Shown here: piece by piece, positions 5,067 to 32,104 of the stretch
Layout: each line of letters opens with the position of its first letter
Numbering within the stretch: the first letter of the stretch is position 1
Assembly (NCBI RefSeq): GCF_018128945.1
Contig: NZ_CP068393.1
Location: 2,914,001-2,978,000, forward strand
Reading direction: 5' to 3'
DNA: 64,000 nt
Origin: Aristaeella hokkaidonensis
GTDB lineage: Bacteria > Bacillota > Clostridia > Christensenellales > Aristaeellaceae
Notes under the pieces: generated by a model
Seen by the model: the letters and a program-made list of their open reading frames with translations, nothing else
What the model was told of the DNA's origin: nothing
The model's database searches: none
Program-made: the position numbers and the translations under genes

Positions 5067-5792
5067 ATGCGGATTGACGAGCTTACCGTGGGACCGGTGC
5101 AGACCCGCTGTTATGTCCTGGGGAAAGAGGATCGACAGGAATGCATCGTGATTGATCCCGGAGACGAGGCAAAACGGATCCGAAAAGCTGCAGGGGACCG
5201 TAAAATTGCGGCGATTCTGCTGACGCACGGGCATTTTGACCACATAGGAGCAGTTCGGGAACTGCTCAATTCAGAATTCTGTGATCGCTGTGACCAAAGG
5301 GCTCATAAGCCTTTTGACAGCTGTAACATGGCTGCTGTTACCCAAATCAAAGATTTGGACAGCAGCTCAACAATGCAGAATTCAGAATTATCCGCTGAGG
5401 CGGGAAAAGATGACCTGTCAACAACAGGTTTTTCCCAAAGTACTAGAATTGTTATACACGAATTAGATGCACCGATGCTGGGAAATCCGGCGTTGAATGC
5501 CAGTATTGGGCTCATGGGGCAGCAGATTACAGCACCTGAAGCGACAGACCTGGTGAGGGAAGGCGATGAGCTGGATCTGGCCGGACTGAAGGTAAAGGTG
5601 CTGCATACGCCGGGCCATACGCCGGGCAGTGTCTGCTATGAAATTGAAGGAGAGCTCTTTACCGGCGATACCATCTTTGAATACGGCTGGGGCAGGACAG
5701 ATCTGCCGGGCGGGAACGAGAGTGACATGGTAGCGTCGCTGCGCCGCCTGTCATCTTTAGTGCGGACGATGCCAATGCATGCAGGACATTAA
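5067..5792 (+). CDS. Metallo-beta-lactamase-fold hydrolase (glyoxalase II-like) carrying an in-frame repeat insert
   Basis: 241 residues from the ATG at 5067, placed behind GGAGGG at 5055-5060. The zinc site THGHFDH (residues 53-59), a second histidine in PGHTPGS and the aspartate in FTGDTIF place it in the MBL fold close to small hydroxyacylglutathione hydrolase-like proteins (YcbL/GloB type). Between the first metal motif and the conserved VIHELDAPML segment lies an insert of roughly 60 residues. Residues 68-108 are encoded by a 123-bp repeat element that also occurs in the U32 peptidase gene, and a further hairpin follows. Without the insert the protein would have the usual length of about 200 residues. 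Whether it is functional cannot be seen, but the frame and metal ligands are intact. Substrate unknown. Confidence 0.88.
   Translation: MRIDELTVGPVQTRCYVLGKEDRQECIVIDPGDEAKRIRKAAGDRKIAAILLTHGHFDHIGAVRELLNSEFCDRCDQRAHKPFDSCNMAAVTQIKDLDSSSTMQNSELSAEAGKDDLSTTGFSQSTRIVIHELDAPMLGNPALNASIGLMGQQITAPEATDLVREGDELDLAGLKVKVLHTPGHTPGSVCYEIEGELFTGDTIFEYGWGRTDLPGGNESDMVASLRRLSSLVRTMPMHAGH
5268..5390 (+). repeat. In-frame double-hairpin repeat element, copy 1 (inside MBL hydrolase gene)
   Basis: 123 bp bounded by AATTCAG heptamers. Hairpin 1 has CAAAGGGCT pairing with AGCCTTTTG (one G.T) inside GCTGT/ACAGC. Hairpin 2 has CCAAATC pairing with GATTTGG inside GCTGCTGT/ACAGCAGC. It is translated without a stop to 41 residues including the segment MAAVTQIKDLDSSST. 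The copy at 18117-18239 has the same length, and its second half is nearly identical. Confidence 0.9.
5402..5436 (+). repeat. Additional in-gene hairpin downstream of the repeat element
   Basis: GGGAAAA at 5402-5408 pairs with TTTTCCC at 5430-5436, and ACCTGT pairs with ACAGGT inside it. It lies within the inserted part of the MBL hydrolase gene and is translated. It has no counterpart in the U32 copy. Confidence 0.7.
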
Positions 5793-5820
5793 TCAATTAA
5801 CAATTAATGGTTGGTAGGAT

Positions 5821-7263
5821 ATGACGGAAATAGAGAGCTATCTGGAGACGATTGAACCGGAGCTGAGGGTGTTAACCCGGATCTTTGGGTTTCCGGAGAG
5901 TGTGTGGGATGAACCCAGGAAGTTTATACCCCTTTCTGAAGAAAAGGAAGGGCAGTTTACGATTGCCTTTGCGGCAGACGGACACCGTGTGGAACGGAGT
6001 ACGCAGGCGCCGGAAGATGCGGATGAGCGGATCCGTACCCTGCACCGCAGACGCGCGGCAAGGCGCCTTTGTAAGCAGACGCTTTATGACCTGCTGAAGG
6101 AGATGACTGGTATCCAGCCTCCCTGGGGCAGTCTGACCGGCGTACGGCCGACGCATCTGATGCTGGAAGCTCTTGAGGAAGGGCTGACGCCGGAAGCGGC
6201 CATCGGACGGCTGACCGCAGATTTCGACGTGGCGCCTGACCGGGCAGCCCTGCTGGCGGAGATTGCGGCGGAACAGCGGAAACTGCCGAAGCCCGGGGAC
6301 GAATGGATGGACGTCTATATCGGAATTCCCTTCTGTACGACCCGTTGTGCCTATTGTTCCTTCTCGTCCGGGGAAATAGGCGACGGAAGCCTGATTGAGC
6401 CTTATATGGCCTCCCTGACGCGGGAAATGAGGGCTTGCGCGGAGATCCTGAAGGACAGCGGACGGAAGCTGCGTGCCCTGTATGTGGGCGGAGGTACGCC
6501 CACGGCATTGCCGCAGGGAGCCTTTGAGCAGCTGATGGAAGAAACCGTGCGCTGCTTTCCGGGTGCAATGGAGTATACCGTGGAAGCGGGACGGCCGGAT
6601 ACCCTGACCCGGGAAAAGCTTCGGGCAATCCGGAACGCCGGTATCGGCCGGATTTCCATCAATCCCCAGACTATGAATGACCGGACGCTGGAGATTATCG
6701 GCCGGGCCCATACGGCGCAGCAGGTACGGGAAGCCTATGCCCTGGCCCGGGAAGAAGCAATTCCCCATATCAATATGGACGTGATTGCCGGACTGCCGGG
6801 GGAAAATGAAGCGGATTTCGCCCACACCATGGAAGAAGCCCGGAAACTGCGGCCGGAGAGTTTGACTGTACATACCCTGGCAATCAAGCGCTCCTCACGG
6901 ATGAGCCTGGAAAACCATCCGCTTCCGGATGGAAATATGACAGCATGCATGGTGGAAACCGGACGGGAAACAGCACGGGCAATGGGCATGGCGCCATATT
7001 ACCTGTATAAACAGAAATACATGGCAGGGAACCTGGAGAACACCGGATATGCCCTGCCGGGTCACGCATGCCTGTATAACGTGGATATTATGGAAGAGAC
7101 GAGTCATATTCTGGCGATGGGTGCCGGCGGGATCTCGAAACGGATTTTCCCCGAAGAAGGACACATTGAGCGGGCGCCGAATGTGAGCAATATACATGAT
7201 TATCTTACCCGGACAGAGGAAATGATTAAGAGGAAAAGGGAACTTTTCCTTAATGAAAACTGA
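5821..7263 (+). CDS. hemZ: HemZ-type radical SAM protein (coproporphyrinogen III dehydrogenase family)
   Basis: 480 residues. The radical SAM motif CTTRCAYC (about residues 173-180) carries the three cysteines for the 4Fe-4S cluster, preceded by DVYIGIPF and followed by the glycine-rich GGGTPTAL. The long N-terminal extension of about 165 residues and the YKQKYMAGNLENTGY segment are typical of Firmicute HemZ rather than HemW. The family is annotated as oxygen-independent coproporphyrinogen oxidase, but many members lack proven activity and no other heme genes are in this window. The start follows a weak site (GGTAGGAT). The C-terminal codons run into a degenerate heptamer tract. Confidence 0.88.
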   Translation: MTEIESYLETIEPELRVLTRIFGFPESVWDEPRKFIPLSEEKEGQFTIAFAADGHRVERSTQAPEDADERIRTLHRRRAARRLCKQTLYDLLKEMTGIQPPWGSLTGVRPTHLMLEALEEGLTPEAAIGRLTADFDVAPDRAALLAEIAAEQRKLPKPGDEWMDVYIGIPFCTTRCAYCSFSSGEIGDGSLIEPYMASLTREMRACAEILKDSGRKLRALYVGGGTPTALPQGAFEQLMEETVRCFPGAMEYTVEAGRPDTLTREKLRAIRNAGIGRISINPQTMNDRTLEIIGRAHTAQQVREAYALAREEAIPHINMDVIAGLPGENEADFAHTMEEARKLRPESLTVHTLAIKRSSRMSLENHPLPDGNMTACMVETGRETARAMGMAPYYLYKQKYMAGNLENTGYALPGHACLYNVDIMEETSHILAMGAGGISKRIFPEEGHIERAPNVSNIHDYLTRTEEMIKRKRELFLNEN

Positions 7264-7277
7264 AAACTTAAGACTTA
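7252..7277. repeat. Degenerate heptamer repeat over the hemZ stop
   Basis: Units TTAATGA, AAACTGA, AAACTTA and AGACTTA follow with a 7-bp step. The hemZ stop codon (TGA, 7261-7263) lies inside, so the last residues (LNEN) come from the repeat. Confidence 0.5.
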
Positions 7278-7319
7278 AAAAAGATATAGTGTTTTTGAAC
7301 CTCTTGACCACATGTATTG

Positions 7320-7355
7320 AAAAAGCGTTCTGATCGTAAGATCAGAACGCTTTTT
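7320..7355. terminator. Bidirectional terminator between hemZ and dtd
   Basis: A perfect 16-bp stem (AAAAAGCGTTCTGATC with its complement) with loop GTAA has A-runs and T-runs on the two sides, so it can end transcription from both directions. It overlaps the last codons and stop of dtd on the minus strand. Confidence 0.9.
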
Positions 7356-7791
7356 CACTGTCCAGCAGGATGGTTACCGGGCCGTCGTTGATGAGGGATA
7401 CTCTCATTTCTGTGCGGAAGCGGCCGGTTTCCACGTGGATTCCCTGACTGCGCCAGGCTGCTACTGCCCGCTCATAAAACTCGTTGGCCATTTCGGGACC
7501 GGCTGCCTGGAAATAGGACGGCCTGCGGCCGCCCCGGGCATCACCGTAAAGGGTGAACTGGGAAACGGCAAGGATGCTGCCGCCCACATCCAGGATGGAG
7601 CGGTTCATAACGCCGTTCTCATCATCATAAATGCGAAGGTTCGGGACTTTTTCCACGATATATTTCAGATCCTTATCGGTGTCTTCCTTTGATACGCCGA
7701 TCAGGACCATCATGCCTGCGTCAATGGCGCCGACGGTTTCATTTTCAACGGTCACGGAAGCGCTTGTGACGCGCTGGACAACTGCTCGCAT
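7342..7791 (-). CDS. dtd: D-aminoacyl-tRNA deacylase
   Basis: 149 residues, the usual length. It starts with MRAVVQRVTSASVTV and contains the SQFTLYGD and conserved GxPSY-like regions (GGRRPSYFQAA) that form the active site. It removes D-amino acids (and mischarged glycine) from tRNA in the cytoplasm. The ATG at 7791 lies behind AAAGGAT; longer upstream frames are only repeat sequence. It lies downstream of rel on the minus strand in the familiar rel-dtd order, but 124 bp of heptamer repeats and an inverted repeat separate them. Confidence 0.95.
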   Translation of the reverse strand: MRAVVQRVTSASVTVENETVGAIDAGMMVLIGVSKEDTDKDLKYIVEKVPNLRIYDDENGVMNRSILDVGGSILAVSQFTLYGDARGGRRPSYFQAAGPEMANEFYERAVAAWRSQGIHVETGRFRTEMRVSLINDGPVTILLDSEKAF

Positions 7792-7811
7792 AGTAGATCC
7801 TTTCAGGAAAA

Positions 7812-7846
7812 GGTAGGAAGTAGAAGGTAGGAAGTAGGAGAGAGGA
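7812..7846. repeat. Heptamer tandem repeat, GGTAGGA family
   Basis: Five 7-bp units (GGTAGGA, AGTAGAA, GGTAGGA, AGTAGGA, GAGAGGA) lie between rel and dtd. They match the tract at 2549-2578. Confidence 0.8.
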
Positions 7847-7860
7847 GTTAAAAAGTGTTG

Positions 7861-7899
7861 AGTGATCAGTGAAGAGTGATGAGTGAAGAGTGTAGAGTT
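7861..7899. repeat. Heptamer tandem repeat, AGTGAAG family
   Basis: Units AGTGATC, AGTGAAG, AGTGATG, AGTGAAG and AGTGTAG step exactly by 7 bp. A related tract is at 33683-33710. It abuts the rel inverted repeat. Confidence 0.8.
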
Positions 7900-7936
7900 G
7901 TTTACCGTGCGACGATTACTTCGTCGCACGGTAAAC
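7900..7936. terminator. 16-bp inverted repeat over the rel stop codon
   Basis: GTTTACCGTGCGACGA pairs perfectly with its complement at 7921-7936 around a 5-base loop. The last rel codons and stop (7916-7918) lie inside the stem. No clear U-run follows on the minus-strand transcript, so it may act as an RNA 3'-end stabiliser rather than a classic terminator. Confidence 0.6.
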
Positions 7937-10120
7937 ATCAAGAATATCAGACTTGTTTCTCAGGGCCTGGATGACCTTGTTCATTTCCTCACGGGAGTGA
8001 ACGTCCAGGGTCAGATGAAGGGTGGAAATCTTGGTCTTTTCATCGCTCTGGATAGAGGCCGCGCGGATGGACACGCCGTTTTCACCGATGATGGTGGCGA
8101 TTTCGCTGAGCATGTTCAGCCGGTCATAGGCAATGATGGTAATGGTGGCATAGAATGTGTTCTGGCCGTCGCTGGCCCATTCCACGGGGATACGGCGTTC
8201 TTCCTCGCCAGTGGCGACGTTGACGCATTCGGCCTTGTGGATAGTCACGCCGCGGCCGCGGGTGATATAGCCCACAATCTCGTCTCCGGGAACAGGGCTG
8301 CAGCACTTGGCAAAGCGGACGGGAATATCCAGGTCCTCGCTGCCGGTGAGCACGATGCCGTGATGGGCACGGTGCTGGCTGAGGCGCTTTTCCTCAGAAA
8401 CCATATCGTCCACGGTCTGGACGGTCTGGACTGGCTGCTCCTTTGCCTTCTGCTCTTCGATCAGGCGGGTGACAACATAGACGACAGCCATGCCGCCGTA
8501 GCCGACAGCACTGCAGATGTCATCGAAGTCCGTGAAACCGGTGCGCTTCAGGATGGGCTCATAATACTCCGGCTTGACAATATCGGACATGCGGACGCCG
8601 CGGCGGACGCATTCCTTTTCAATCATGGCACGGCCGATTTCAACGTTTTCTTCCTTCAGGGATTTCTTCAGGAACTGGCGGATCTTGGCTTTGGCCTGGG
8701 GCGTTTTGCAGATCCGGAGCCAGTCGGTTCCCGGTCCCTTGGAGGAAGCGGAAGTCAGGATTTCCACCCGGTCGCCGGTGCCCAGGGGCGTATCCAGCGG
8801 AACGATTTTGCCGTTGATTTTCGCGCCGACGCACTGGTTACCGATGGCGGAGTGAATCCGGTAGGCAAAGTCCAGGGGAGTAGCGCCCTTGGGCATGGAA
8901 ATAACGTCTCCCTTGGGCGTAAAGAGGAATACTTCCTCAGAGAAAAGGTCTGTTTTCAGGGTATCCAGGAACTCACGTGAATCCCGGGTCTCCGTCTGCC
9001 AATCCAGCATCTGGCGAACCCAGAACAGTTTGTGGTCCAGGTTGTCTTCCCGGTTGGCGCCTTCCTTGTACCGCCAGTGGGCAGCAATGCCGAATTCCGC
9101 CACGCGGTGCATGTCCCAGGTACGGATCTGCACTTCGAAGGGGAAGGGAATCTTCCGGCCACCCACAACGGTGGTGTGAAGGGACTGGTACATGTTGGCC
9201 TTGGGGACAGAGATATAATCCTTGAACCGGCCGGGGACCTGATTCCACAGGGTATGGACAATACCCAGGACTGTATAGCAGTCCGGAATGGTATCCACAA
9301 TTACGCGGATGGCGATCAGGTCATAAATCTGGTCAAAGGCCTTCTGCTGAAGCACCATCTTGCGATAGATGGAATAGAAGTGTTTGCTGCGGCCGTCGAT
9401 GTTGTAGCGGATATGCTGCTGGTCCAGACGCTCTGAAAGTTCATTGATGACCAGCTTGATGCTCTCCTCCCGTTCCTGGCGCTTCATGCCGACGAGATGA
9501 ACAATGCGGTTGTAGCCTTCCGGATCAATGTACTTAAGGGACAGGTCTTCCAGCTCCTGCTTGATGGCATAAACACCGAGACGGTGTGCTAGGGGCGCAT
9601 AGATATCCAGCGTTTCCCGGGCAATGGCCTGACGGCGTGCTTCCGGCTGGAATCGCAGGGTGCGCATGTTATGCAGACGGTCCGCCAGCTTGATCAGAAC
9701 GACACGGATATCCCGGGACATCGCCAGGATCATCTTACGGAGGGATTCAGCCTGGGCTTCCTCACGATCCGCAAAATCCAGCTTGTTCAATTTGGTGACG
9801 CCGTCTACAAGATCCGCCACTTCATTGCCGAACTCCTCGCGGATGGTATCAAGGGTGATACCTTCGCAGTCCTCGACAGTATCATGCAGGAGACCCGCGG
9901 CGATGGTGGGGGGATCAATCATCAGATCCGTAAGGATCGAAGCGACAAGGGAAGGATGGGTGAAATAAGGCTCACCGGATTTGCGGAACTGGCCTTCATG
10001 GGCCTTTTCGGCAAACTTCCAGGCTTTTTCCACCAGCTTGTAGCCGTCACCGGGATGGTATTTCTGTATCCGGTTAAGCATCTGATCCAGAGGCATTGCT
10101 TCATAAGATGTGAAAGCCAT
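7916..10120 (-). CDS. rel: Bifunctional (p)ppGpp synthetase/hydrolase, RelA/SpoT family
   Basis: 734 residues, a full-length long Rel. In order: the HD hydrolase domain (HDTVED near 80 and neighbouring histidines), the synthetase domain (about 200-350, with YQSLHTTV), TGS (about 390-450, VFLFTPKGDVI), a helical and zinc-finger-like region (CCSPVPGD) and a C-terminal ACT domain. It makes and degrades (p)ppGpp in the stringent response on the ribosome. The start is well marked by AAGGAGGATC before the ATG. It ends at an inverted repeat and is followed by repeats and dtd. Confidence 0.97.
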   Translation of the reverse strand: MAFTSYEAMPLDQMLNRIQKYHPGDGYKLVEKAWKFAEKAHEGQFRKSGEPYFTHPSLVASILTDLMIDPPTIAAGLLHDTVEDCEGITLDTIREEFGNEVADLVDGVTKLNKLDFADREEAQAESLRKMILAMSRDIRVVLIKLADRLHNMRTLRFQPEARRQAIARETLDIYAPLAHRLGVYAIKQELEDLSLKYIDPEGYNRIVHLVGMKRQEREESIKLVINELSERLDQQHIRYNIDGRSKHFYSIYRKMVLQQKAFDQIYDLIAIRVIVDTIPDCYTVLGIVHTLWNQVPGRFKDYISVPKANMYQSLHTTVVGGRKIPFPFEVQIRTWDMHRVAEFGIAAHWRYKEGANREDNLDHKLFWVRQMLDWQTETRDSREFLDTLKTDLFSEEVFLFTPKGDVISMPKGATPLDFAYRIHSAIGNQCVGAKINGKIVPLDTPLGTGDRVEILTSASSKGPGTDWLRICKTPQAKAKIRQFLKKSLKEENVEIGRAMIEKECVRRGVRMSDIVKPEYYEPILKRTGFTDFDDICSAVGYGGMAVVYVVTRLIEEQKAKEQPVQTVQTVDDMVSEEKRLSQHRAHHGIVLTGSEDLDIPVRFAKCCSPVPGDEIVGYITRGRGVTIHKAECVNVATGEEERRIPVEWASDGQNTFYATITIIAYDRLNMLSEIATIIGENGVSIRAASIQSDEKTKISTLHLTLDVHSREEMNKVIQALRNKSDILDVYRATK

Positions 10121-10146
10121 GGGTGATCCTCCTTTCAGTCGGATTT

Positions 10147-10177
10147 AATTCACAATTCACAATTCATAATTCATAAT
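10147..10177. repeat. Heptamer tandem repeat, AATTCAC/AATTCAT
   Basis: Two AATTCAC and two AATTCAT units in the rel-recJ gap, which is otherwise AT-rich and featureless. Confidence 0.8.
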
Positions 10178-10256
10178 GCTTTTCTGTTGCTCCCGATGAA
10201 AATATGGCTTCAGGAACAATATATTATTATACCATACTTTATGATTTATGTTTACT

Positions 10257-11951
10257 CTATGGTGTCCGGGTGCGTCGAGAGGACAGTACTAATAATTCTG
10301 AATTATTGACACATGCCACCTGGGCTTCAATGCTGACGCGGCCGCGGAAGTCGTTCCGGATGGGACGATAGAGCAGGTCCAGGACGGCAGGGCTTTCGTC
10401 AGCGACGTCGCCCTTTGAGAAGGCAATGCCGTCCACAACGGACAGGTCCTCATCCAGGACGGTCAGCTTCAGATGGGAGCCGTCTTTGCCTACCCGGCGG
10501 AGTGACTGAACTTCAGCACCCTGCAACAGGAAGAGCGGTGCGGGGTTGCCGCAGCCGAAGGGCTCCATGCGATCCAGCATTGCAAGGGTTTCGGGAGTCC
10601 AGGTACGGAATGGGATAATCATGTCATATTCCATGGCGGGCAGGAAGCATTCCTCCGGTGTGGCGGAAGAGATTTCTTCTTCCAGCCGTTTCTGAAGCAG
10701 GGGAATATTCTCTGTTTTTACGGTCAGGCCGGCCGCCTGTTCATGTCCGCCGAAGCGCTCCAGCAGGTCGGCGCAGGCGGAGAGCATACGGTAAATATTG
10801 ACACCGGGAATGGAACGACAGGAACCGACGGCAGTGTCCTCATGAATGCTGAGAGCGATGGCAGGCAGGTGAAAGCGTTCACACAGCCGCCCGGCGGTGA
10901 GGCCGATCAGGCCGGGATTCCAGTCTTCTCCGGAAACAATGACTACATGGGATTTTGCCAGCTCAGCCGCATCCAGCTGGGTCAGGGCGGAGGCTGTCAT
11001 CTCCCGCTCCAGGTTCTGCCGGGTGCGGTTGGCTTCCTCCAGCAGACCTGCGATATGGGAGGCTTTGGCGGGATCCGGGGTCAGGAGCAGATGGACGCCG
11101 AGTTTTGCGTCTCCCAGGCGGCCGGCAGCGTTAAGCCGGGGACCGAGGCGGAACGCAAGATCATCGGCGGTAACCGCAGCCTGTAGTCCGGCTTTTTCCA
11201 GCAGCGCTTTCAGGCCGGGCCGGGAGGTATTCATGATACGATGAAGTCCTTCCCGGACGATGACCCGGTTTTCTTCCTGCAGGGGGACGATATCCGCAAC
11301 GGTGGCGAGGGCAGCAAGATCCAGCCGCTTTTCTACACCCGGCATCCCCTGAAGGGCCTGGCAGATTTTGAGCGCCACGCCCGCACCGCACAGATAGGGG
11401 CAGGGGTATTCTCCCAGAAGCGGATCCATCACCACGTCAGCCTGGGGGAGAATTTCCGGAGGCTGGTGATGGTCTGTCACGATGACGGTCAGACCAAGGG
11501 ACTTCGCCAGGGCAACTTCTTCCACGTTGGAGACACCGCAGTCCACTGTAATCAGAACCTGAGCTTTTTCCGCTATTTCACGGACAGCATCGGCATTCAG
11601 GCCGTAGCCTTCGGTGTGACGGGAAGGAATGCGGTATGCCAGGGACGCGCCTTCCTCGTGCAGGGTTTCCATCAGGATGGAGGCAGCGCAGACGCCGTCT
11701 GCGTCATAGTCGCCGTAAACGAGGATGGTTTTTTCTTCATCAATGGCCTTCCTGAGCAGGGCAACGGTTTCCGTCATGCCAGGGAGCAGGAAAGGGTCAT
11801 GGAGATCATCCAATGAGGGATTCAGGTAACGGCGGGATTCTTCTTCTGTATGGATGCCGCGGGCAAAGAGAAGCCTGGACATCCAGTCCGGAAGACCATT
11901 GAAAGGAGGGCAATCCGAAACACATCGCTGAATGAAACGTGTATGGGTCAT
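10257..11951 (-). CDS. recJ: Single-stranded-DNA-specific exonuclease RecJ
   Basis: 564 residues. The DHH phosphoesterase motifs are clear: VYGDYDADGVC (about 78-88), the DCGVSN aspartate and VTDHHQPP, then the DHHA1 domain with GGHEQAAG and a C-terminal OB-like domain. RecJ degrades single-stranded DNA 5' to 3' in RecF-pathway recombination and mismatch or base-excision repair. The last residues (about NNSELLVLSS) read through an AATTCTG-type heptamer, so the natural C-terminus seems to have been replaced by repeat-derived sequence. The protein is at the short end for Firmicute RecJ. Confidence 0.94.
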   Translation of the reverse strand: MTHTRFIQRCVSDCPPFNGLPDWMSRLLFARGIHTEEESRRYLNPSLDDLHDPFLLPGMTETVALLRKAIDEEKTILVYGDYDADGVCAASILMETLHEEGASLAYRIPSRHTEGYGLNADAVREIAEKAQVLITVDCGVSNVEEVALAKSLGLTVIVTDHHQPPEILPQADVVMDPLLGEYPCPYLCGAGVALKICQALQGMPGVEKRLDLAALATVADIVPLQEENRVIVREGLHRIMNTSRPGLKALLEKAGLQAAVTADDLAFRLGPRLNAAGRLGDAKLGVHLLLTPDPAKASHIAGLLEEANRTRQNLEREMTASALTQLDAAELAKSHVVIVSGEDWNPGLIGLTAGRLCERFHLPAIALSIHEDTAVGSCRSIPGVNIYRMLSACADLLERFGGHEQAAGLTVKTENIPLLQKRLEEEISSATPEECFLPAMEYDMIIPFRTWTPETLAMLDRMEPFGCGNPAPLFLLQGAEVQSLRRVGKDGSHLKLTVLDEDLSVVDGIAFSKGDVADESPAVLDLLYRPIRNDFRGRVSIEAQVACVNNSELLVLSSRRTRTP

Positions 11952-11969
11952 GGGATTGCCTCCTTTCTG

Positions 11970-11997
11970 CTAATTCAGAATTATGAATTCAGAATTA
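11970..11997. repeat. Heptamer tandem repeat, AATTCAG/AATTATG
   Basis: AATTCAG, AATTATG, AATTCAG and AATTAAC units immediately upstream of recJ, within its probable 5' region. A promoter for recJ was not clear. Confidence 0.75.
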
Positions 11998-12062
11998 ACG
12001 GTATGATGAGAATTCGGGACTAGTCAATACAGATGCGGTATACAGATCCATAAAAAGAAGAA

Positions 12063-12090
12063 GAAAGGACTGCGTATCCGCAGTCCTTTC
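12063..12090 (-). terminator. Terminator after secDF
   Basis: GAAAGGACTGCG pairs with CGCAGTCCTTTC around TATC. On the minus strand the stem runs into a pyrimidine-rich TTCTTCTTTTT tail. Confidence 0.8.
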
Positions 12091-12103
12091 CGTTTGTTTG
12101 TAA

Positions 12104-12997
12104 TCAGGCTTTGGCCTTGCGGCTGCGGCGTTTTTCTTCCAGGAAAGCCCAGACATAACCGTTGATCATGTTGGCGCTGTAGACACCGGAGAGGATACCG
12201 ACGATGATCGGCAGAGCGAACTCACGGATGGAAGCAACACCCAGGATGCACAGAGCCACGATGGTGATCAGGGTGGTTACTGTGGTGCAGATGGTGCGGC
12301 CCAGGCTCTCACGAATGGAGATGTTGGTAACTTCTTCACGGGGAGCGGTGGGCATCTTCTTGGCATTCTCACGAATACGGTCGAAGATAACGATGGTGTT
12401 GTTGATGGAGTAACCAACAATGGTCAGCGCCGCGGCGATGAACGAAGAGTTCATCTGGATCACGGAGCGGAAGATCACCATGAAGGAGAGCATGATCAGC
12501 ACGTCATGCAGCAGACCGAACACAGCGGCGAGGCCGGAGTTCAGGTCGAACCGGATGGCGATGTAGACCAGCATCAGGCCGGCGGCGAGAAGCACGGAGA
12601 TGATCGCGTTCCGGACCAGGGTGTCACCGGCTACGGGACCAACGTAGTTCACATCACCGATGGAAACGGCTTCCGGATAGGTTTCTTTGATGCCGGCTTC
12701 GAAATCAGCCTGAACCTTCTGGATGTCGTCCTTGGTAATGTCCTTGATGCGGATGTTCACTTCATTGTTGTCGCGGCCCTGAACGGTGACGGTGCTGTTT
12801 GTAACACCCATGTTTTCCAGGACGTTAGTCACGTCAGCGGAAGTGACGGCGGTCTTCATATCATACTGCATGGAGAGGCCGCCTGCGAAATCGATACCCA
12901 GGTTAATTCCATTACCGGAGAGGTGCAGGCCCAGGGCGACGAGGATGATCACGGCGGAGATGATAAGGCAGATCTTGGAACGATTCTTGATAGTCAT
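12104..12997 (-). CDS. secF: Protein translocase subunit SecF
   Basis: 297 residues. It has an N-terminal membrane segment followed by the GIDFAGGLSMQYD motif, a short periplasmic-type (here extracellular) domain, and five further membrane segments including the family motifs around GYSINNTIVIFDRIREN. SecF works with SecD to pull exported proteins through SecYEG with proton-motive force. It overlaps the secD stop at its start, indicating translational coupling, as expected where secD and secF are separate genes. Confidence 0.95.
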   Translation of the reverse strand: MTIKNRSKICLIISAVIILVALGLHLSGNGINLGIDFAGGLSMQYDMKTAVTSADVTNVLENMGVTNSTVTVQGRDNNEVNIRIKDITKDDIQKVQADFEAGIKETYPEAVSIGDVNYVGPVAGDTLVRNAIISVLLAAGLMLVYIAIRFDLNSGLAAVFGLLHDVLIMLSFMVIFRSVIQMNSSFIAAALTIVGYSINNTIVIFDRIRENAKKMPTAPREEVTNISIRESLGRTICTTVTTLITIVALCILGVASIREFALPIIVGILSGVYSANMINGYVWAFLEEKRRSRKAKA

Positions 12998-14322
12998 TAC
13001 GCCTCAACCTCCTTTTCATCAACAACGTTTACTTTGGTATAGAGGGAGGTGTTGGTAGCACCAGCATTCACGAAACGGTTCATGAGGAAGCGGGTAACAA
13101 TGATCGCGGTGAACATGGAAACAACCACGCCCAGCAGCAGGGTCTTGGCGAAGCCCTGGATGGAACCGGTGCCGTAGAACAGCAGCACGATGGCGGCGAT
13201 CAGAGTGGTGACGTTGGCGTCCAGGATAGCGGACATAGCGTTTTTGAAACCGGCGCGGACGGCAGCCTTCACGCTGCGGCCCTTGCGGACTTCTTCGTTG
13301 AAGCGTTCGAAGATGATGACGTTCGCGTCAACTGCCATACCGATGCCCAGAACCACACCGGCCAGACCGGGCAGGGTCAGCTGGATATGGAAGAGAGCGA
13401 TGAGCAGGAACAGCAGGATCGTGTAAATGGTCAGGGCCCAGGAGGCGATGAGACCATTCAGACGATAACGGAGGATCATCAGGAGCATGATCAGCAGGAT
13501 GCCGATCAGAGCGGCACGCACGGAGGAAGACACAGCGTCCTGACCGAGGGTGGCGGATACTTTATCAACCTTCTGCTGGGTCAGTTCCAGCGGCAGGGCA
13601 CCGGACTGGATCTTGGCGGCAACGCTGGTCGCCTGTTCTTGAGTGTAGTTGCCGGAGATGACGCCGTGGCCGTCCAGGATTGCAGTCTGGACAGTGGCGT
13701 TAACCAGCTGTTCACCGTCCAGCTCAATGATCAGGTTCTTACCGACATTGGCAGCGGTGACTTCGCCGAAGATCTTGGCGCCTTCTTCATTCAGTTCAAA
13801 GGCGATCTCATGACCTTTTTCGCCGTAGCTGTAAACGGCCTTCTTGACCATGTCGCCGGTCATGAAGACTTCGCCGTCGGGAGTTTTGAACTCCATCTTA
13901 GCGGCAGCGCCGATCAGGTCCAGTACGGTATCGTCCTGAACATCCGGGATTTCAACACGGATGCCGTCAGCGCCCAGCTGCTGGACATTGGCTTCATTGT
14001 AGCCCTTGTCAGACAGACGGGAGCGGATAATGGACATGGTACCTTCGCGCAGGCTGTCGAAGTCCGCGGTGGAACCTTCCGGAGCTTTGCCGGAATATTC
14101 AACATACATACCGCCCCGCAGGTCAAGACCCAGAGGCAGGGATTCAGGCCAGTTCTCGGAATTGGTGGTGGGCAGCCAGGACAGAACCTTGTACAGTCCA
14201 CGGGGAGGCAGGCTTACTCCGGTGACACCGATCACGCCAAGTGCGATGGTGACGACGAGCAGCACACACAGCGCGATGATGGCTCCGGTTTTGCCGCCAA
14301 CGCGCTTATTGCCGGATTTCAT
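12997..14322 (-). CDS. secD: Protein translocase subunit SecD
   Basis: 441 residues from the ATG at 14322, chosen because AAGGAGGAAACG precedes it; a GTG 27 bases upstream would lie in front of that site. It has one N-terminal membrane segment, the LGLDLRGGMYVEY motif, a large extracytoplasmic domain (about 60-260) and five membrane segments with GMAVDANVIIFERF. It partners SecF in the Sec complex. The gene is the first of the secDF pair and has a clean 110-bp gap to the divergently unrelated GNAT gene. Confidence 0.95.
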   Translation of the reverse strand: MKSGNKRVGGKTGAIIALCVLLVVTIALGVIGVTGVSLPPRGLYKVLSWLPTTNSENWPESLPLGLDLRGGMYVEYSGKAPEGSTADFDSLREGTMSIIRSRLSDKGYNEANVQQLGADGIRVEIPDVQDDTVLDLIGAAAKMEFKTPDGEVFMTGDMVKKAVYSYGEKGHEIAFELNEEGAKIFGEVTAANVGKNLIIELDGEQLVNATVQTAILDGHGVISGNYTQEQATSVAAKIQSGALPLELTQQKVDKVSATLGQDAVSSSVRAALIGILLIMLLMILRYRLNGLIASWALTIYTILLFLLIALFHIQLTLPGLAGVVLGIGMAVDANVIIFERFNEEVRKGRSVKAAVRAGFKNAMSAILDANVTTLIAAIVLLFYGTGSIQGFAKTLLLGVVVSMFTAIIVTRFLMNRFVNAGATNTSLYTKVNVVDEKEVEA

Positions 14323-14430
14323 ATTGATCGTTTCCTCCTTCGAAAACACAGTTGAAGATATTATAAACGCCTGACGTTTTTACGTCAAGCGCTATTCAAG
14401 GTAAATCAAGGGGAAGAACCGGAAAAGAAC

Positions 14431-15234
14431 TCAGTTCAGATACATGCCCGGGAAGATCATATTGACGCCCAGAACGGTGCCTCCGAAGTCCGCTGCCAGA
14501 CGCTGCTGGGGGACACTGCGGCTCATGATCCGGGTGGTGATGCGGGTAACACCTTCTGCGGCCATGATGGCCATCAGCCGATGCAGGAGTGCCTTGCCCA
14601 TGCCCTGATTCCGGCTGCCGGGCTCAATATAGATGGCAACCAGTTCACAGTCTGTGCCCTGTCCGGCCATGATCGCTTCGCCGATGAGTACCGCATTGCG
14701 GTACAGGCCGAGGGTCATGAAGTGGGGCATACGCTGGAGGCTCTTGAGATAGTTCATATCCACAAAGGAGATTTCATTCATCTGGAGCCGGTAGATGAGG
14801 CTGTTCTGCTCGTCCCAGGTATTGAGGGGAGTGGGAGCAACAGTGCAGCTCATCGGAATGCGCCCGTCACCGAAGGGGATGGCCAGCTGGAGGACTTCAT
14901 CGGTTTCGTTGCAGTCAAAACCGTTATGAGTATAGAAATCCTTCATCTGGATATCATTAGGGGCAATGCTTGTATACAGACGGCAGCGCATCTGCGGATT
15001 CACGTTCTGCAGAATGCGTGCACGGGCAACCAGCGCGCCGAAAAGGAGATACCGTGAAGCGGGATCTCCGGCCAGTGAAAAATACAGATTGACAGGACAG
15101 TCCGGATACAGGCCGGGCTGGAGCTGATAGAGGATAAAGCCATATCCGGTTTGTGTTCCAAGGTCGTCGACCGCGTAGAACACGTCTTCCGGGTTCAGCC
15201 CGTTTACAGGCTGCTGGGGATGTACGATCGTCAT
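14431..15234 (-). CDS. GNAT-family N-acetyltransferase with N-terminal extension
   Basis: 267 residues from the ATG at 15234 behind AAAGGAG. The C-terminal half has the acetyl-CoA-binding motif A of the GNAT fold (IYIEPGSRNQGMGKALL, about 215-231) preceded by the typical beta strands. The N-terminal half looks like a second, degenerate GNAT domain (FFSL/YTHNGFD region), so this may be a tandem-GNAT protein. Substrate unknown. Its upstream promoter is close to perfect consensus, suggesting strong constitutive expression. Confidence 0.8.
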   Translation of the reverse strand: MTIVHPQQPVNGLNPEDVFYAVDDLGTQTGYGFILYQLQPGLYPDCPVNLYFSLAGDPASRYLLFGALVARARILQNVNPQMRCRLYTSIAPNDIQMKDFYTHNGFDCNETDEVLQLAIPFGDGRIPMSCTVAPTPLNTWDEQNSLIYRLQMNEISFVDMNYLKSLQRMPHFMTLGLYRNAVLIGEAIMAGQGTDCELVAIYIEPGSRNQGMGKALLHRLMAIMAAEGVTRITTRIMSRSVPQQRLAADFGGTVLGVNMIFPGMYLN

Positions 15235-15262
15235 AGCGTGTACTCCTTTCGGGAATCCCCTT

Positions 15263-15291
15263 ATTATACAAAGTATGGAGAAGGTTGTCAA
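15263..15291 (-). promoter_or_regulatory. Consensus sigma-70/A promoter for the GNAT gene
   Basis: On the minus strand TTGACA (15286-15291), a 17-bp spacer and TATAAT (15263-15268) match consensus exactly. Transcription would start about 20 bases before the GNAT ATG. Confidence 0.88.
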
Positions 15292-15323
15292 AAAAGGCGC
15301 AGAGTATGCTCTGTGCCTTTTTT
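15290..15323. terminator. Terminator-like hairpin at the edge of the hairpin array
   Basis: GGCGCAGAG pairs with CTCTGTGCC around TATG, with an A-run on the left and a T-run on the right. It lies between divergently transcribed genes and touches the GNAT -35 box, so the transcript it ends on the plus strand is not obvious. Confidence 0.7.
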
Positions 15324-15324
15324 G

Positions 15325-15437
15325 AATGAAATATTTGCCCGCTGGGCAAATATGAAATATCGCTTTCGCGATGTGAAATACAGAACCGCAGCGCGGTTCT
15401 GTGTGAAATATCCGCCCAAGGGCGGATGTTATATTTA
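15325..15437. repeat. Tandem array of four hairpins separated by (G)TGAAAT spacers
   Basis: Stems are 15331-15353 (10 bp), 15359-15372 (5 bp), 15380-15402 (10 bp) and 15410-15427 (8 bp). All are perfect with 2-4 base loops, and short TGAA(AT) spacers separate them. Stem sequences differ completely while the spacer is kept. A fifth hairpin of the same look (ATTGAAGC/GCTTCAAT) is at 15458-15476. Confidence 0.85.
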
Positions 15438-15614
15438 CTTTTTACCTCCATGGTGTGATTGAAGCAAGGCTTCAATATCCCGGTGCTGCGGCACTGCTTG
15501 CCATGGGAAGGAAAAATCGTTATAATAGGGAAGCTTTCATTCTGAATGAAGGTAATTTATTTCAAAAACAATCTGGAACTGGAGCGGAGCTCCAAAGGGA
15601 GGAAAATCAGAAAC

Positions 15615-16133
15615 ATGGCACAGAATCCTGTGTTTACAATCACTATGAGCGACGGACGTGTGATGAAAGGCGAACTGTATCCTGAAGTCGCGCCGCAGTC
15701 CGTTGGCAACTTTACCGCGCTTGCCAACAGCGGTTTCTATGACGGACTGATCTTTCACCGGGTCATTCCGGGCTTCATGATCCAGGGCGGCGATCCCAAG
15801 GGGATAGGCATCGGCGGCCCCGGCTACTGCATCAAAGGCGAATTTGCCGCGAATGGAATTAACAATCCCCTGAAGCATACCTACGGTGTGCTGAGCATGG
15901 CCCGCAGCATGATGCCTGATTCCGCCGGAAGCCAGTTCTTTATCATGACCAGCGACAGTCCCCATCTGGACGGACAGTACGCTGCCTTCGGCAAAGTGCT
16001 GGAAGGAATGGATGTGGCAGAGGACATCGTGAAGGCAAAGCGGGATCGCTCCGATAAACCGCTTGAGCCGCAGGTTATGGCATCGATCCGGGTGGATACA
16101 TTCGGACAGTGCTATCCCTTTGACCAGATCTGA
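15615..16133 (+). CDS. ppiB: Cyclophilin-type peptidyl-prolyl cis-trans isomerase
   Basis: 172 residues from the ATG at 15615 with GGGAGG ahead of it; an in-frame upstream extension is non-homologous. It contains the cyclophilin core: [15 protein letters not shown] (catalytic Arg and Gln), AGSQFFI and the FGKVLEGMD segment. There is no signal peptide, so it is cytoplasmic. It catalyses proline isomerisation in folding. It is monocistronic and followed by a terminator. Confidence 0.95.
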
Positions 16134-16143
16134 GAAAAGCATT

Positions 16144-16180
16144 GAAGCGCGGAAAGGGTTGAACCCCTTTCTGCGCTTTT
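16144..16180 (+). terminator. Terminator after ppiB
   Basis: GAAGCGC and GAAAGGG arms pair with GCGCTTTTC and CCCTTTC with small bulges; a TTTT tail follows. Confidence 0.8.
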
Positions 16181-16240
16181 CACTTATGTACGGGATCATA
16201 TGTACTCAATGAGGCGGTTGACAGAGACAGGAGGCAGGAA

Positions 16241-16513
16241 ATGGAAAAGCAGAAAATCACCGTAACGGTTGCGGGCAAAAACTATACGCTGGTATCCGGC
16301 GACGCGCCGGAGTTTGTGAAGCGGGTGGCGTCTTTCGTGGACCGGAAGCTGAACGAAACGGCAGCGGTAACCAACCTGCCTTCCGGGCAGGCGGCTGTGC
16401 TGACCTGTTTTAACCTGGCGGAAGAGTTGCTGAAGGCGCAGGATGAGAATACGATGCTGCGCAGGCAGAACGAGCAATTGGCGCGGAGCGCCAAAGCAAT
16501 TCATAATTCATAA
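16241..16513 (+). CDS. zapA: Cell division protein ZapA
   Basis: 90 residues, normal for Firmicute ZapA. The N-terminal globular domain (KQKITVTVAGKNYTLVSGD) and the C-terminal coiled coil are both visible. ZapA bundles FtsZ protofilaments at midcell. The order zapA, U32 peptidase, mutS2 is common in Clostridia. The start lies behind an AGGAGG-like site. The final residues IHNS and the stop are encoded by an AATTCAT/AATTCAG heptamer tract, so the tail of the coiled coil has been rewritten by the repeat. Confidence 0.93.
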   Translation: MEKQKITVTVAGKNYTLVSGDAPEFVKRVASFVDRKLNETAAVTNLPSGQAAVLTCFNLAEELLKAQDENTMLRRQNEQLARSAKAIHNS

Positions 16514-16525
16514 TTCAGAATTAAG
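16498..16525. repeat. Heptamer tandem repeat overlapping the zapA stop
   Basis: AATTCAT, AATTCAT, AATTCAG and AATTAAG; the zapA stop codon TAA lies inside. The remaining gap to the U32 gene (16526-16646) is AT-rich and holds another AATTAATTC-like remnant. Confidence 0.85.
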
Positions 16526-16646
16526 TGCTGAGTTGATCCGGAAGATGACTTCCGACGTATGGATATAAAAGCTTTCAGCATGAAATTCAGGAGTATGCCG
16601 GTATATAATCATTATAACTCTGAATTAATTCAAGGAGTGTAGCGAC

Positions 16647-19082
16647 ATGGAGAATCTGGCTCCGGCAGGGAACCGCGCGGCTCTGGAACGGGCAGACGCG
16701 GCAGGTGCGGACGCGGTATACCTTGGGTATTCCGCTTTCAGTGCGCGCGCCGGTGCAGGGAATTTTAACCGGCAGGAGCTGGAGGATGCCATCCGCTATG
16801 CTCATCTGCGCCATATGCGGGTTCATGTGACCGTGAACACGCTGGTGAAGGACGGGGAACTGGCACAGGTGACAGAGGTACTGCGGCTGCTGAATGATCT
16901 TCATGCGGACGCTGTGCTGGTGCAGGACCTGGGTGTGCTGCGAATTGCCCGGAACCTTTTCCCGGATCTGACGGTGCACGCGAGTACCCAGATGGCCATT
17001 CACAACCGGACAGGAGTGGTCTGGTGCGGAAAACATGGAATCCGCAGGGCGGTGCTGGCACGGGAGTGCTCCCTGGAAGAGATTCGCAAGTGTGCGGATA
17101 CCGGTGTTGAGATTGAAGTATTTGTTCATGGCGCGCAGTGTGTGGCAGTGAGTGGACTGTGCCTGTTCTCCAGCATGGTTGGAGAACGAAGCGGAAACCG
17201 CGGCCGGTGTGCCCAGCCCTGTCGGATGGAGTATGACTACCGCGGACGCTGGGGCGCATGGCTGAGTCCCAGGGACGTATGCCTGCGGGATGAACTGCCG
17301 AAGCTTGCGGAGGCCGGGGTGGCGTCCTGCAAGATTGAAGGCAGGCTGAAGCGGCCGGAATATGTGGCCACTGTGGCGGCCAGCTACTGGAAAGGCATGG
17401 ACAGCCTGGAACGGGGATGCTTTGAGAAGGCCGACGAAGCAGAAAAAGAGGGGCTGCTCCAGATCTTTAACCGGGGCGGCTTCATGAAGGGATATGCCCT
17501 GGGCTGCGAGGACGCGGGGGTGATATTCCCGGACACGGTGAATCACCAGGGCGTCCGGATCGGCCGGGTGACGGCTGCGGACGGAAAACTGGCTAAGGTA
17601 CAGCTGGAAAAAGACCTGCGGAATGGTGACGGGCTTTCACTGCGGGGAGCACATGAGGAGATTAGCCTGGTTTATGCCGGACCGAACCTGAAGACCGGGG
17701 AGACGGCTATCCTGCGGCTGAGGCCAGACGTGAAGGCCAAAGGCGGGGATATCGTATTCCGCCTGACGGCTGTGGATCAGCTGGAAAAAGCGGAAGCGAT
17801 GAAAGGCCGGACAGTGCCGGTTGATCTTTTCCTGAAGGCAATGCCCGGAGAAGCACTGCGCCTGACCGCCACAGACGGGGAAAACACCGTAACGGTCACA
17901 GGTGACATCGTGGAAGCCGCGAAAACCCGGGCGGTCACAGAGGAAGAACTGGGACGCAGCCTGGAAAAGACCGGGGATACGGTCTTTGTTCCGCGTGAGG
18001 TTAAAACGAAGACGGCAGGCGCCTTTGTGCCGGTAAGCCGGGTGAACGCTATCCGACGGGAAGCGCTGGAAGCGCTGGCGGAGGAGAGAATAAGGGAATT
18101 CGAACAACGAATTCCCAATTCAGAACTTCTGCGATCGCTGTTACCAAAGGATCAAATATCCTTTGACATCTGTAGCATGGCAGCTGTTACCCAAATCAAA
18201 GATTTGGACAGCAGCTCAACAATTCAGAATTCAGAATTAAATGTTCCTGAAGAACACCTTCCTGCAGGAGAAGTGCCGCAGATTGCTTATATTCGTACGA
18301 AGGAACAGGCTGAGTTGGCCAGAACAGCAGGACTGTGGGTGGTCTGGTGTCCGGAGGATTACCGGACGGAAGCCCTGCAGGCGCTGAAGGCGGTAATCCA
18401 GCCGGGAGACTGGCTGGCCCTGCCGGATGTATGTGAGGAAGAGACCCTGCAGGCCCTGCGGCGTTATACAGAAGAAAACAAGGAACTGCTCGGCGGCGTT
18501 GTACTGGGTTCTGTCGGACAGCTGGGAACGGACTGGCCGGTAGCTTATGCGGCAGGCGCAGGGGTTCCGGTGATGAACCGTCAGGCGGCTTCGCTGCTGA
18601 TGGAGGAAGGGTGCGCGTTTGTGACAGCCTCTCCTGAACTGACGGGGCAGGAACTGAAGACGCTCCTGGCCGGGGGCGCGCCTGTTGTGACAACGGTTTA
18701 CGGACGGACACGGCTGATGCTGCTGCACCACTGTCCGGCGCGAACTGCCCTGGGACTGAAGAAAGGACATGCAGGCTGCCGGATGTGCGATGAAGGACAT
18801 CCGGACGCACTGAAGGACCAGGTGCTGGAAGACCGGAAGGGATACCGATTCCCGCTCCTGCGTCAGCGGCTGCCGGAAGGGTGTCTGGTACAGCTGATGA
18901 ATGCCTTCCCGACGGACATAATCAATTCAGAATTCAGAATTCAGAATTCAGAATTAAACAGAGCGGTTGTCCTGACTACGGAGGATCCGGAAGACACAAG
19001 AATGGTTCTAAAGGCTTTCAAAGAAGGACGGAAGACGGATGGGGAAACTACATCCGGACATTGGAAAAGACCGGTAGAATAA
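16647..19082 (+). CDS. U32-family peptidase (RlhA/YrrO-like) with two repeat-derived in-frame inserts
   Basis: 811 residues. The N-terminal U32 domain (LAPAGNRAALERADAAGADAVYLG, then FVHGAQCVAVSGLCLFSS and RGRCAQPCR with clustered cysteines) is followed by the DUF3656-type collagenase-related region and a C-terminal domain with further cysteines (HCPARTALGLKKGHAGCRMCDEGH). Relatives act in tRNA or 23S rRNA hydroxylation (TrhP, RlhA), so the peptidase name may be misleading. Residues 491-531 are encoded by the 123-bp repeat element also found in the MBL gene, and residues 760-770 by an AATTCAG tract. Both are in apparent linkers and leave the frame open. Confidence 0.9.
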   Translation: MENLAPAGNRAALERADAAGADAVYLGYSAFSARAGAGNFNRQELEDAIRYAHLRHMRVHVTVNTLVKDGELAQVTEVLRLLNDLHADAVLVQDLGVLRIARNLFPDLTVHASTQMAIHNRTGVVWCGKHGIRRAVLARECSLEEIRKCADTGVEIEVFVHGAQCVAVSGLCLFSSMVGERSGNRGRCAQPCRMEYDYRGRWGAWLSPRDVCLRDELPKLAEAGVASCKIEGRLKRPEYVATVAASYWKGMDSLERGCFEKADEAEKEGLLQIFNRGGFMKGYALGCEDAGVIFPDTVNHQGVRIGRVTAADGKLAKVQLEKDLRNGDGLSLRGAHEEISLVYAGPNLKTGETAILRLRPDVKAKGGDIVFRLTAVDQLEKAEAMKGRTVPVDLFLKAMPGEALRLTATDGENTVTVTGDIVEAAKTRAVTEEELGRSLEKTGDTVFVPREVKTKTAGAFVPVSRVNAIRREALEALAEERIREFEQRIPNSELLRSLLPKDQISFDICSMAAVTQIKDLDSSSTIQNSELNVPEEHLPAGEVPQIAYIRTKEQAELARTAGLWVVWCPEDYRTEALQALKAVIQPGDWLALPDVCEEETLQALRRYTEENKELLGGVVLGSVGQLGTDWPVAYAAGAGVPVMNRQAASLLMEEGCAFVTASPELTGQELKTLLAGGAPVVTTVYGRTRLMLLHHCPARTALGLKKGHAGCRMCDEGHPDALKDQVLEDRKGYRFPLLRQRLPEGCLVQLMNAFPTDIINSEFRIQNSELNRAVVLTTEDPEDTRMVLKAFKEGRKTDGETTSGHWKRPVE
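18094..18116 (+). repeat. In-gene inverted repeat abutting the repeat element
   Basis: GGGAATTCG pairs perfectly with CGAATTCCC around AACAA, directly before the 123-bp element in the U32 gene. Confidence 0.8.
18117..18239 (+). repeat. In-frame double-hairpin repeat element, copy 2 (inside U32 peptidase gene)
   Basis: Same length (123 bp) as copy 1 at 5268-5390. Hairpin 1 is CAAAGGAT/ATCCTTTG with loop CAAAT; its inner base pairs differ from copy 1 but pairing is kept. Hairpin 2 (CCAAATC/GATTTGG) and the following AGCAGCTCAACAAT are identical except for one base. The peptide again contains MAAVTQIKDLDSSST. Early in the copy a one-base insertion shifts the frame and the hairpin-1 loop restores it. 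Confidence 0.9.
18924..18956. repeat. AATTCAG heptamer tandem repeat inside the U32 coding region
   Basis: Four perfect AATTCAG units plus AATTA, read in frame as NSEFRIQNSEL between two conserved parts of the C-terminal domain. Confidence 0.9.
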
Positions 19083-31859: not shown

Positions 31860-32104
31860 GGTTGAATCCTTCGGGTCTGTGGTTGCAAGCCGATGCCAGT
31901 CGCAGGCAAAGCGGTCCACGTAATCCGTCCAAAGCGGCGGGGAGCATGGTGCGGTCTAGATGTAAGTCCGTCCGGGAGCAATTCCGAGAGAAGCTAGTGA
32001 GGGTGCGTAAAGCACAGAGCAAACTTCCAGGCGGCGTGTGTGGGGGCAAAGACCAGGTCAGCCGGAGGAGTCGCCTATCAAAAAGTTATGGGGGTTACCA
32101 GATC
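31860..32104 (+). ncRNA. Candidate structured RNA leader (about 245 nt) before the zinc-ribbon gene
   Basis: GC-rich, non-coding stretch between a good promoter and the ATG at 32105. It contains several small stems (for example GTGC/GCAC around GTAAA at 32003-32015, and GGAGCAATTCC near 31976) and purine-rich unpaired-looking segments. An in-frame extension of the downstream gene through it has no recognisable protein features. The length and isolated promoter suggest a structured ncRNA or riboregulator. A raiA-type RNA is one possibility, but I cannot match a consensus from memory. Confidence 0.5.

Follow-up and report, generated by a model that had tools for sequence, protein, structure and literature searches.

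A stretch of 64,000 nucleotides (nt) from Aristaeella hokkaidonensis (contig NZ_CP068393.1, positions 2,914,001 to 2,978,000; hereafter the window) carries genes for an MBL-fold hydrolase and a U32 peptidase, two unrelated proteins that each contain, in frame, a copy of the same small DNA element. A first-pass annotation, made from the letters alone, had drawn attention to this pair as a translated, mobile-looking double hairpin. Here we report a computational analysis of the element, which is real, mobile, conserved in shape and tolerated in frame in a few proteins. Genomes and loci are designated by G and L numbers, respectively; G000 is the window's own genome (3.39 Mb), and R1 is a covariance model built from 46 aligned copies. 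The features concerned are as follows.

5067..5792, plus strand: MBL-fold hydrolase gene containing copy 1 (PF00753, E 1.2e-27)
5268..5279, plus strand: left part of the heptamer array (AATTCAGAATTC), older than the element and present in the empty site of G089
5280..5369, plus strand: copy 1 of the double-hairpin element, 90 nt, in the MBL-fold hydrolase gene (R1 match 93.6 bits, E 8e-22); in G089 the site is precisely empty
5287..5321 (edges approximate), plus strand: hairpin 1 of copy 1, with outer stem GCTGT/ACAGC, 3-nt bulge GAC and an inner stem (from fold and alignment)
5331..5366, plus strand: hairpin 2 of copy 1, with outer stem GCTGCTGT/ACAGCAGC, 3-nt bulge TAC and inner stem CCAAATC/GATTTGG (from fold and alignment)
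5370..5389, plus strand: right part of the heptamer array, of the same length in the G089 empty site with two substitutions
16647..19082, plus strand: U32 peptidase gene containing copy 2 (PF01136, E 7.9e-68; PF12392, E 1.3e-21)
18130..18218, plus strand: copy 2 of the element, 89 nt, in the U32 peptidase gene (R1 match 91.5 bits, E 2.6e-21), with counterparts at the same place in G089, G080, G076 and G096, and heptamers alone in G065, G086 and G060

The segments that the first-pass annotation had paired (5268–5390 and 18117–18239) are 89% identical over their 123 nt, and share the reading frame MAAVTQIKDLDSSST, as it had stated. The one-base shift that it had seen in copy 2 is also real: an extra base in the left flank is offset by a shorter hairpin 1, and the frame is restored. 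The boundaries that it had drawn, 123 base pairs (bp) with AATTCAG edges, are wrong. The element is a unit of 90 or 89 nt (TGYG...CTCA), and the AATTCAG edges belong to a heptamer array that is older than the element, because the array is present in the congener G089 without it. In the MBL gene of G089, AATTCAGAATTC is followed directly by AGAATTCAGAATTCAGAATTATCC, and the window has 90 nt more between the two. The comparison of these orthologues thus gives exact ends for the 90-nt difference, with no target duplication and no loss; strictly, it reflects either insertion in G000 or precise excision in G089. Immediately after the MBL array, at 5390–5438, lies a further inserted stretch (ATCCGCTGAGGCGGG and a hairpin) that is also found in G089; L003, L008 and L115 have comparable letters behind their arrays.

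The MBL insert is not carried as an ordinary domain by relatives, near or distant: it is absent from 11 of 11 aligned homologues of other genera and from 8 of 8 aligned congeners (8 of 10 congener loci aligned, 2 did not). Among the other aligned congener sites, G080 has a heptamer array, G060 a trace, and G096, G094, G076 and G072 none. In two matches from the PDB the alignment of the hydrolase breaks between residues 65–68 and 126–128; the insert falls at a connector that is some six residues long in these two structures.

R1 found 29 copies in G000, where BLAST with copy 1 found 15 places, and returned only two matches in the window, in agreement with the first-pass count. From G000 and public records, 104 copies could be parsed, 12 hairpin-1 matches that had no parsed hairpin 2 being dropped. 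Their consensus reads TGYGATC, hairpin 1, TGTARCATG, hairpin 2, then TCA or GCA. The termini are accordingly TGYGATC and KCA, and only TGNG/CNCA is common to both ends. The nearest non-orthologous relatives of 88 short copies are 75–98% identical, so there is no set of near-identical copies that would mark a recent burst. Zero-gap head-to-tail pairs of elements occur in G076, G096 and G079.

The proposed double hairpin with compensatory changes is borne out by covariation. Hairpin 1 has an outer stem of 5 bp, a 3-nt bulge on the 5′ side and a variable inner stem; hairpin 2 has an outer stem of 8 bp, a 3-nt bulge and an inner stem of 7 bp. Inner stem 1 differs in sequence between the two window copies and pairs in both. 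Two pairs are broken in copy 2, one in each outer stem. In a tally of short forms, which leaves out 24 of the 104 copies with larger hairpins, the bulge of 3 nt and the 7-bp inner stem 2 are kept in 74 of 80, with 37 different sequences in outer stem 2. In an alignment of 46 of the 79 distinct short copies, 97.3% of cells pair, compared with 79.7% in shuffles and 32–41% when partners are slid by 1–3 columns; two-sided changes number 235 against 67.0 in shuffles (0 of 500 shuffles as high). This excess over shuffled and slid controls indicates that the pairing is not due to chance. Further pair types, a fifth measure in the same 46 copies, are not above shuffles (37 versus 40.1). The patterns used to collect copies demanded hairpin-1 motifs and, in outer stem 2, a minimum of 7 pairs out of 8, so that helices 1, 2 and 4 were partly selected to pair; the helices free of this selection are 91.6% (helix 3) and 98.7% (helix 5) paired, with two-sided changes at all 7 pairs of helix 3 and at 4 of the 7 of helix 5. 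Quasi-palindrome correction was rejected as the sole cause of the pairing: it would be expected to erase the bulge, yet bulge and inner stem 2 are kept in the 74 of 80 copies.

Several observations concern nested or neighbouring structures. Another dispersed repeat with a structure of its own, about 104 nt long (CCGCA...TTCGCC), is found in either orientation, by itself or within the bulge of one of the two hairpins (L007, L004, L009–L012, L018, L020, L024 and L026–L030), and the homologous copies L007/L062 and L011/L117 differ by its presence. A smaller double hairpin is nested in hairpin 2 of several copies (L016, L017, L045 and L059).

In the U32 gene, copy 2 has counterparts at the same place in four congeners, giving five genomes (G000, G089, G080, G076 and G096) in which all frames are open, with proteins of 803–852 residues. 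The same locus has heptamers alone in G065, G086 and G060 and no heptamers in G094, G085 and G088; this comparison covers the aligned congeners, which are part of the congener matches. The inner stems of the U32 copies differ among the five genomes, and the arrays are a hot spot. A second in-frame heptamer array, which has no element (NSEFRIQNSELN), lies at 18881–18930, towards the 3′ end of the gene; it is absent in the aligned relatives except G080.

The suggestion that the frame is under selection is supported in part. All five aligned U32 copies are open, and the ratio of non-synonymous (dN) to synonymous (dS) divergence from G089 is 0.12 in the MBL gene (dN 0.012, dS 0.093) and 0.17 in the U32 gene. 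Of the 63 codons in the insert region of U32, however, 11 are changed relative to G089, only 1 of them synonymously, so that the predicted insert peptide is tolerated rather than conserved, with the frame kept. A third in-frame case is L075, where a copy lies between NlpC/P60 and peptidoglycan (PG)-binding domains and the first half of the element is read in another frame. Among 18 frames overlapping copies that were scanned with Pfam, two of them the window's own, only L075 besides those two has domains on both sides; at L067 the insert marks the end of a DUF2213 match on the other strand, and at L053 the copy stands ahead of a CTP synthase domain. Reading frames through the element are moderately more open than expected, with 2.02 of 6 open per copy over 85 copies, versus 1.43 in 200 mononucleotide shuffles, none of which exceeded 1.69. 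The copies of G000 are mostly intergenic: besides the two in the window, 0 of the 22 that could be placed lie inside an open reading frame (ORF) called by a simple gene caller.

Within the genus, R1 matches 34 of 45 genomes, the window's own included, with 0–42 copies each; outside the genus, none of 96 genomes representing 49 other genera of the family has a match. Together with the precise empty site in G089, this patchiness bears out the mobility that the first-pass annotation had proposed. A pattern scan of one genome per species yielded 87 stretches; the 80 listed by title, from 17 assemblies, all belong to uncultured Clostridia or Clostridiales, many from ruminants. Searches of phage and plasmid collections gave no match to the element. 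The hairpin-1 pattern occurs in five viral contigs (L121–L125), and L123 and one L124 copy have the same right flank, ACGGGCAGAAAGGG.

Two kinds of target can be recognized. The first is the heptamer array: among the 109 of 111 copies that have 40-nt flanks, 42 lie in arrays, compared with 20 of 5,000 random sites, and the heptamers on the two sides of the element are in one phase, with not a base omitted (0.511 matches versus 0.24–0.32 off the 7-bp period). The arrays come in several flavours (AATTCAG, AACTTAA, AGTGAAG). At the second position beyond the right end of the element, 93 of 104 copies have C or T. A heptamer-like reading (LFTHHSSLITQHF) is also seen on the minus strand at 7860–7941, at the start of the ORF 7342–7941.

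The second target is the stop codon. Thirteen rows, corresponding to 12 places (L034, L040, L046/L191, which are the same, L054, L057, L066, L071, L077, L083, L093, L100 and L113), abut TCA, the complement of a TGA stop. At these sites the KCA end abuts the TGA stop of a gene on the opposite strand, and TAA or TAG is found at none of them; in 11 of the rows an ORF of at least 162 residues ends exactly at the element. Homologues of the stop-site genes end at the same residue in L066/L087, L083/L089, L093/L091 and L113/L036, and one residue later in L054/L111. Between L113 and L036, the spacer measured without the element is 22 nt in both.

The orientation of the copies follows replication. With origin and terminus placed roughly by GC skew from 20 sampled stretches per genome, the TGYG...KCA strand runs with leading-strand synthesis in 26 of 29 G000 copies (P = 8e-6, one-sided), and the same orientation is seen in 15 of 16 copies of G060 and 24 of 30 copies of G089 among the best-scoring matches listed (of 34 and 42, respectively). 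Local skew, counted for the 107 copies outside viral loci, agrees for 81 of the 94 copies that are not at stop codons. Because the copies point with replication, the folding strand lies on the lagging-strand template. Gene direction alone explains this poorly, given that 8 of the 10 G000 copies whose neighbouring genes are not both co-oriented still follow replication, a small number.

We consider it an even chance that the element, which carries no genes, is non-autonomous and is moved as single-stranded DNA by a putative, perhaps HUH-type, enzyme. The TGYG...KCA strand would fold into two tandem hairpins of one design, which the enzyme would recognize by shape, and within genes a copy would survive only where the frame stays open, its peptide forming a harmless loop that drifts. 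The absence of duplication, the fixed bulges with free stem letters, the lagging-template bias and the head-to-tail pairs resemble single-strand transposition by HUH Y1 enzymes, so that an enzyme of this kind (Y1, of the IS200/IS605–REP type) would be the likeliest mover. Lagging-template insertion by way of hairpins is described, in the excerpts of the literature on which our comparisons draw, for IS608 and ISDra2 (PMC6006769), and single-strand transposition by HUH Y1 enzymes is discussed for REPINs (PMC3116915).

Several points weigh against movement by such an enzyme. No mobilizing enzyme was found: Y1 matches occur in 28 of 45 genus genomes, G000 having two on its minus strand (2443636–2443965 and 1296679–1297014), and 0 of the 20 Y1 genes examined have an element within 1 kb; an R1 match (E ≤ 0.01) accompanies 2 of the 20 loci, in both about 1.5 kb from the gene. 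G076, G080 and G096, each with more than 20 copies, have no Y1 match, all three genomes being incomplete. The Y1 negative is tempered by the partial coverage of REP-type enzymes by PF01797 (PMC6006769). The bases left of the element are not fixed beyond the array sequence (104 copies), unlike the targets needed by IS200/IS605, and the base two to the right misfits the array, which would mostly have G, A or T there. Only 2 of the 13 stop-codon copies agree with local skew. Finally, the nearest match of copy 1 within G000 is only 89% identical, less than would be expected of a very recent copy, and this is to be set against a dS of 0.09 from G089; the G089 copy may have been lost by precise excision, or the source of copy 1 may be gone. 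A RAYT or Y1 gene as flanking partner was not supported by the 20 Y1 loci.

A more specific version of single-strand movement is tentative, and we hold it doubtful: two bulged single-strand hairpins, whose stems could vary pairwise in their letters, would be recognized by shape only; the enzyme, with no relation to the RAYT and IS200 proteins known so far, would target heptamer arrays of any sequence as well as TGA stops, and the element could lodge in frame in enzymes.

The main rival combines two processes, transposition founding a site and recombination between arrays spreading the element from it. Such a mixture agrees with the association of hairpin-1 subtype with array flavour: hairpin 1 is long in 21 of 23 AACTT copies and short in 34 of 41 AATTC copies. 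Recombination between arrays by itself, with the element as a cassette that enters same-flavour arrays through its flanking heptamers by homologous or slippage recombination and needs no transposase now, we regard as unlikely. It draws on the same association, on the exactly kept heptamer phase and on the base two to the right: among AACTT copies 21 of 23 have T there, and among AATTC copies 37 of 41 have C, as though a separate founder stood behind each flavour. It leaves unaccounted for the copies that lie outside arrays exactly at stop codons, the replication-strand bias and the pyrimidine two bases to the right that three flavours share with the stop sites.

Movement through RNA, the transcribed element reverse-splicing or being copied into DNA by a reverse transcriptase, is distinctly improbable. 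The strong secondary structure would suit it, some retroelements show lagging-strand bias, and the ends TGYG and AY resemble those of group II introns, in appearance only. However, RVT_1, matched in 14 of 45 congeners including G066 and G080, has no match in 7 of the 9 genomes with more than 20 copies (G000, G060, G065, G076, G086, G089 and G096, with 25 to 42 copies), and on this ground a reverse transcriptase was rejected as the mover. Moreover, the mismatches over 103 distinct copies (8 G-T versus 15 C-A, plus 4 U-G in helix 1) give no clear sign of an RNA strand.

That the element is a regulatory RNA or a terminator which the host retains for its function, and which spread by duplication, is less probable still. 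The conserved fold and the 13 rows (12 places) directly behind TGA stops are what it would predict; the patchy presence within one genus, the in-frame copies in enzymes, and the decay of pairs by which the window copies and the G089 homologue differ all run counter to it. Nor did Rfam give a matching family: none of its five window matches lies at either copy, and a lax scan of the MBL region gave a best E of 0.058, below gathering. The same window scan places raiA RNA at 31866–32070 and a match to the Streptococcus small RNA SpF59 at 57873–57926. That the two proteins share an ordinary domain has practically no chance of being right and was rejected: their peptides are similar, but the aligned MBL homologues (11 of 11 from other genera and 8 of 8 congeners) lack the insert, copies occur outside genes, and L075 reads the first half in another frame.

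A search of the open-licence literature by title or abstract returned no description of this element. The first-pass annotation had likened it to Rickettsia palindromic elements (RPEs), and this holds as an analogy between published features. RPEs, in Rickettsia and Wolbachia, are hairpin-forming mobile repeats of about 100 nt found in frame in conserved protein genes, and Rickettsia guanylate kinase stays active with its insert (PMC2229807). In-frame insertion is shared by the present element (MBL, U32 and L075). An RPE, however, is a long stem-loop formed by terminal inverted repeats and bears a CGTC end tag (PMC3733652), whereas we find two tandem bulged hairpins with ends TGYGATC and KCA, associated with heptamer arrays in a Clostridia host.

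REP and REPIN sequences with their RAYT genes, and IS200/IS605 derivatives, offer a second likeness as hairpin-bearing, non-autonomous repeats, inserted in the case of IS200/IS605 without duplication and with a lagging-strand bias (PMC6006769, PMC3116915). The present element likewise lacks a target duplication, has hairpins near its ends and has its folding strand on the lagging-strand template (26 of 29 in G000), the stop-codon copies being the misfit by local skew (2 of 13). It differs in having no conserved tetra- or pentanucleotide target on its left (104 copies) and no terminal GTAG/GTRG or CGTC tag; no GTAG-type tag stands at a hairpin foot, GTAG or GTAA occurring only in the linker between the hairpins (79 of 80 short copies). 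Its hairpins are direct rather than inverted, and its copies do not flank RAYT genes (20 Y1 loci). Among the loci retrieved, no transposase-bearing element with its ends was seen. The terminal inverted repeats and target duplication of classical miniature inverted-repeat transposable elements (MITEs) are absent. Enterobacterial and Neisseria MITEs (ERIC/RU, Correia) in some cases form in-frame fusions with genes; they possess terminal inverted repeats and, in the tabulated cases, mostly target duplications (PMC2229807), neither of which is found here.

To the in-frame small mobile repeats described for Rickettsia, enterobacteria, Yersinia and Neisseria (PMC2229807), the element adds an example from Clostridia of the gut: one of its sites has an exact empty counterpart, another is occupied in five species, and its orientation carries a signature of the replication strand. 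Conservation of shape without sequence makes a structure-reading transposase directly testable, and the link to arrays provides a handle on the origin and use of heptamer arrays. Two mobile hairpins also characterize the double-hairpin elements described from fungal mitochondria, which are organellar and were compared by description only. The small dispersed repeats of cyanobacteria, found in heptamer repeats (STRR), are tiny, share a common fold with compensatory changes, occur in heptamer arrays and are nested; at 21–27 nt they are much shorter and belong to another phylum. By description only, we take them to be the nearest overall analogue. By analogy, the element would combine the in-frame tolerance of RPEs with the single-strand hairpins of the IS200/IS605–REP systems, and it fits the definition of neither.

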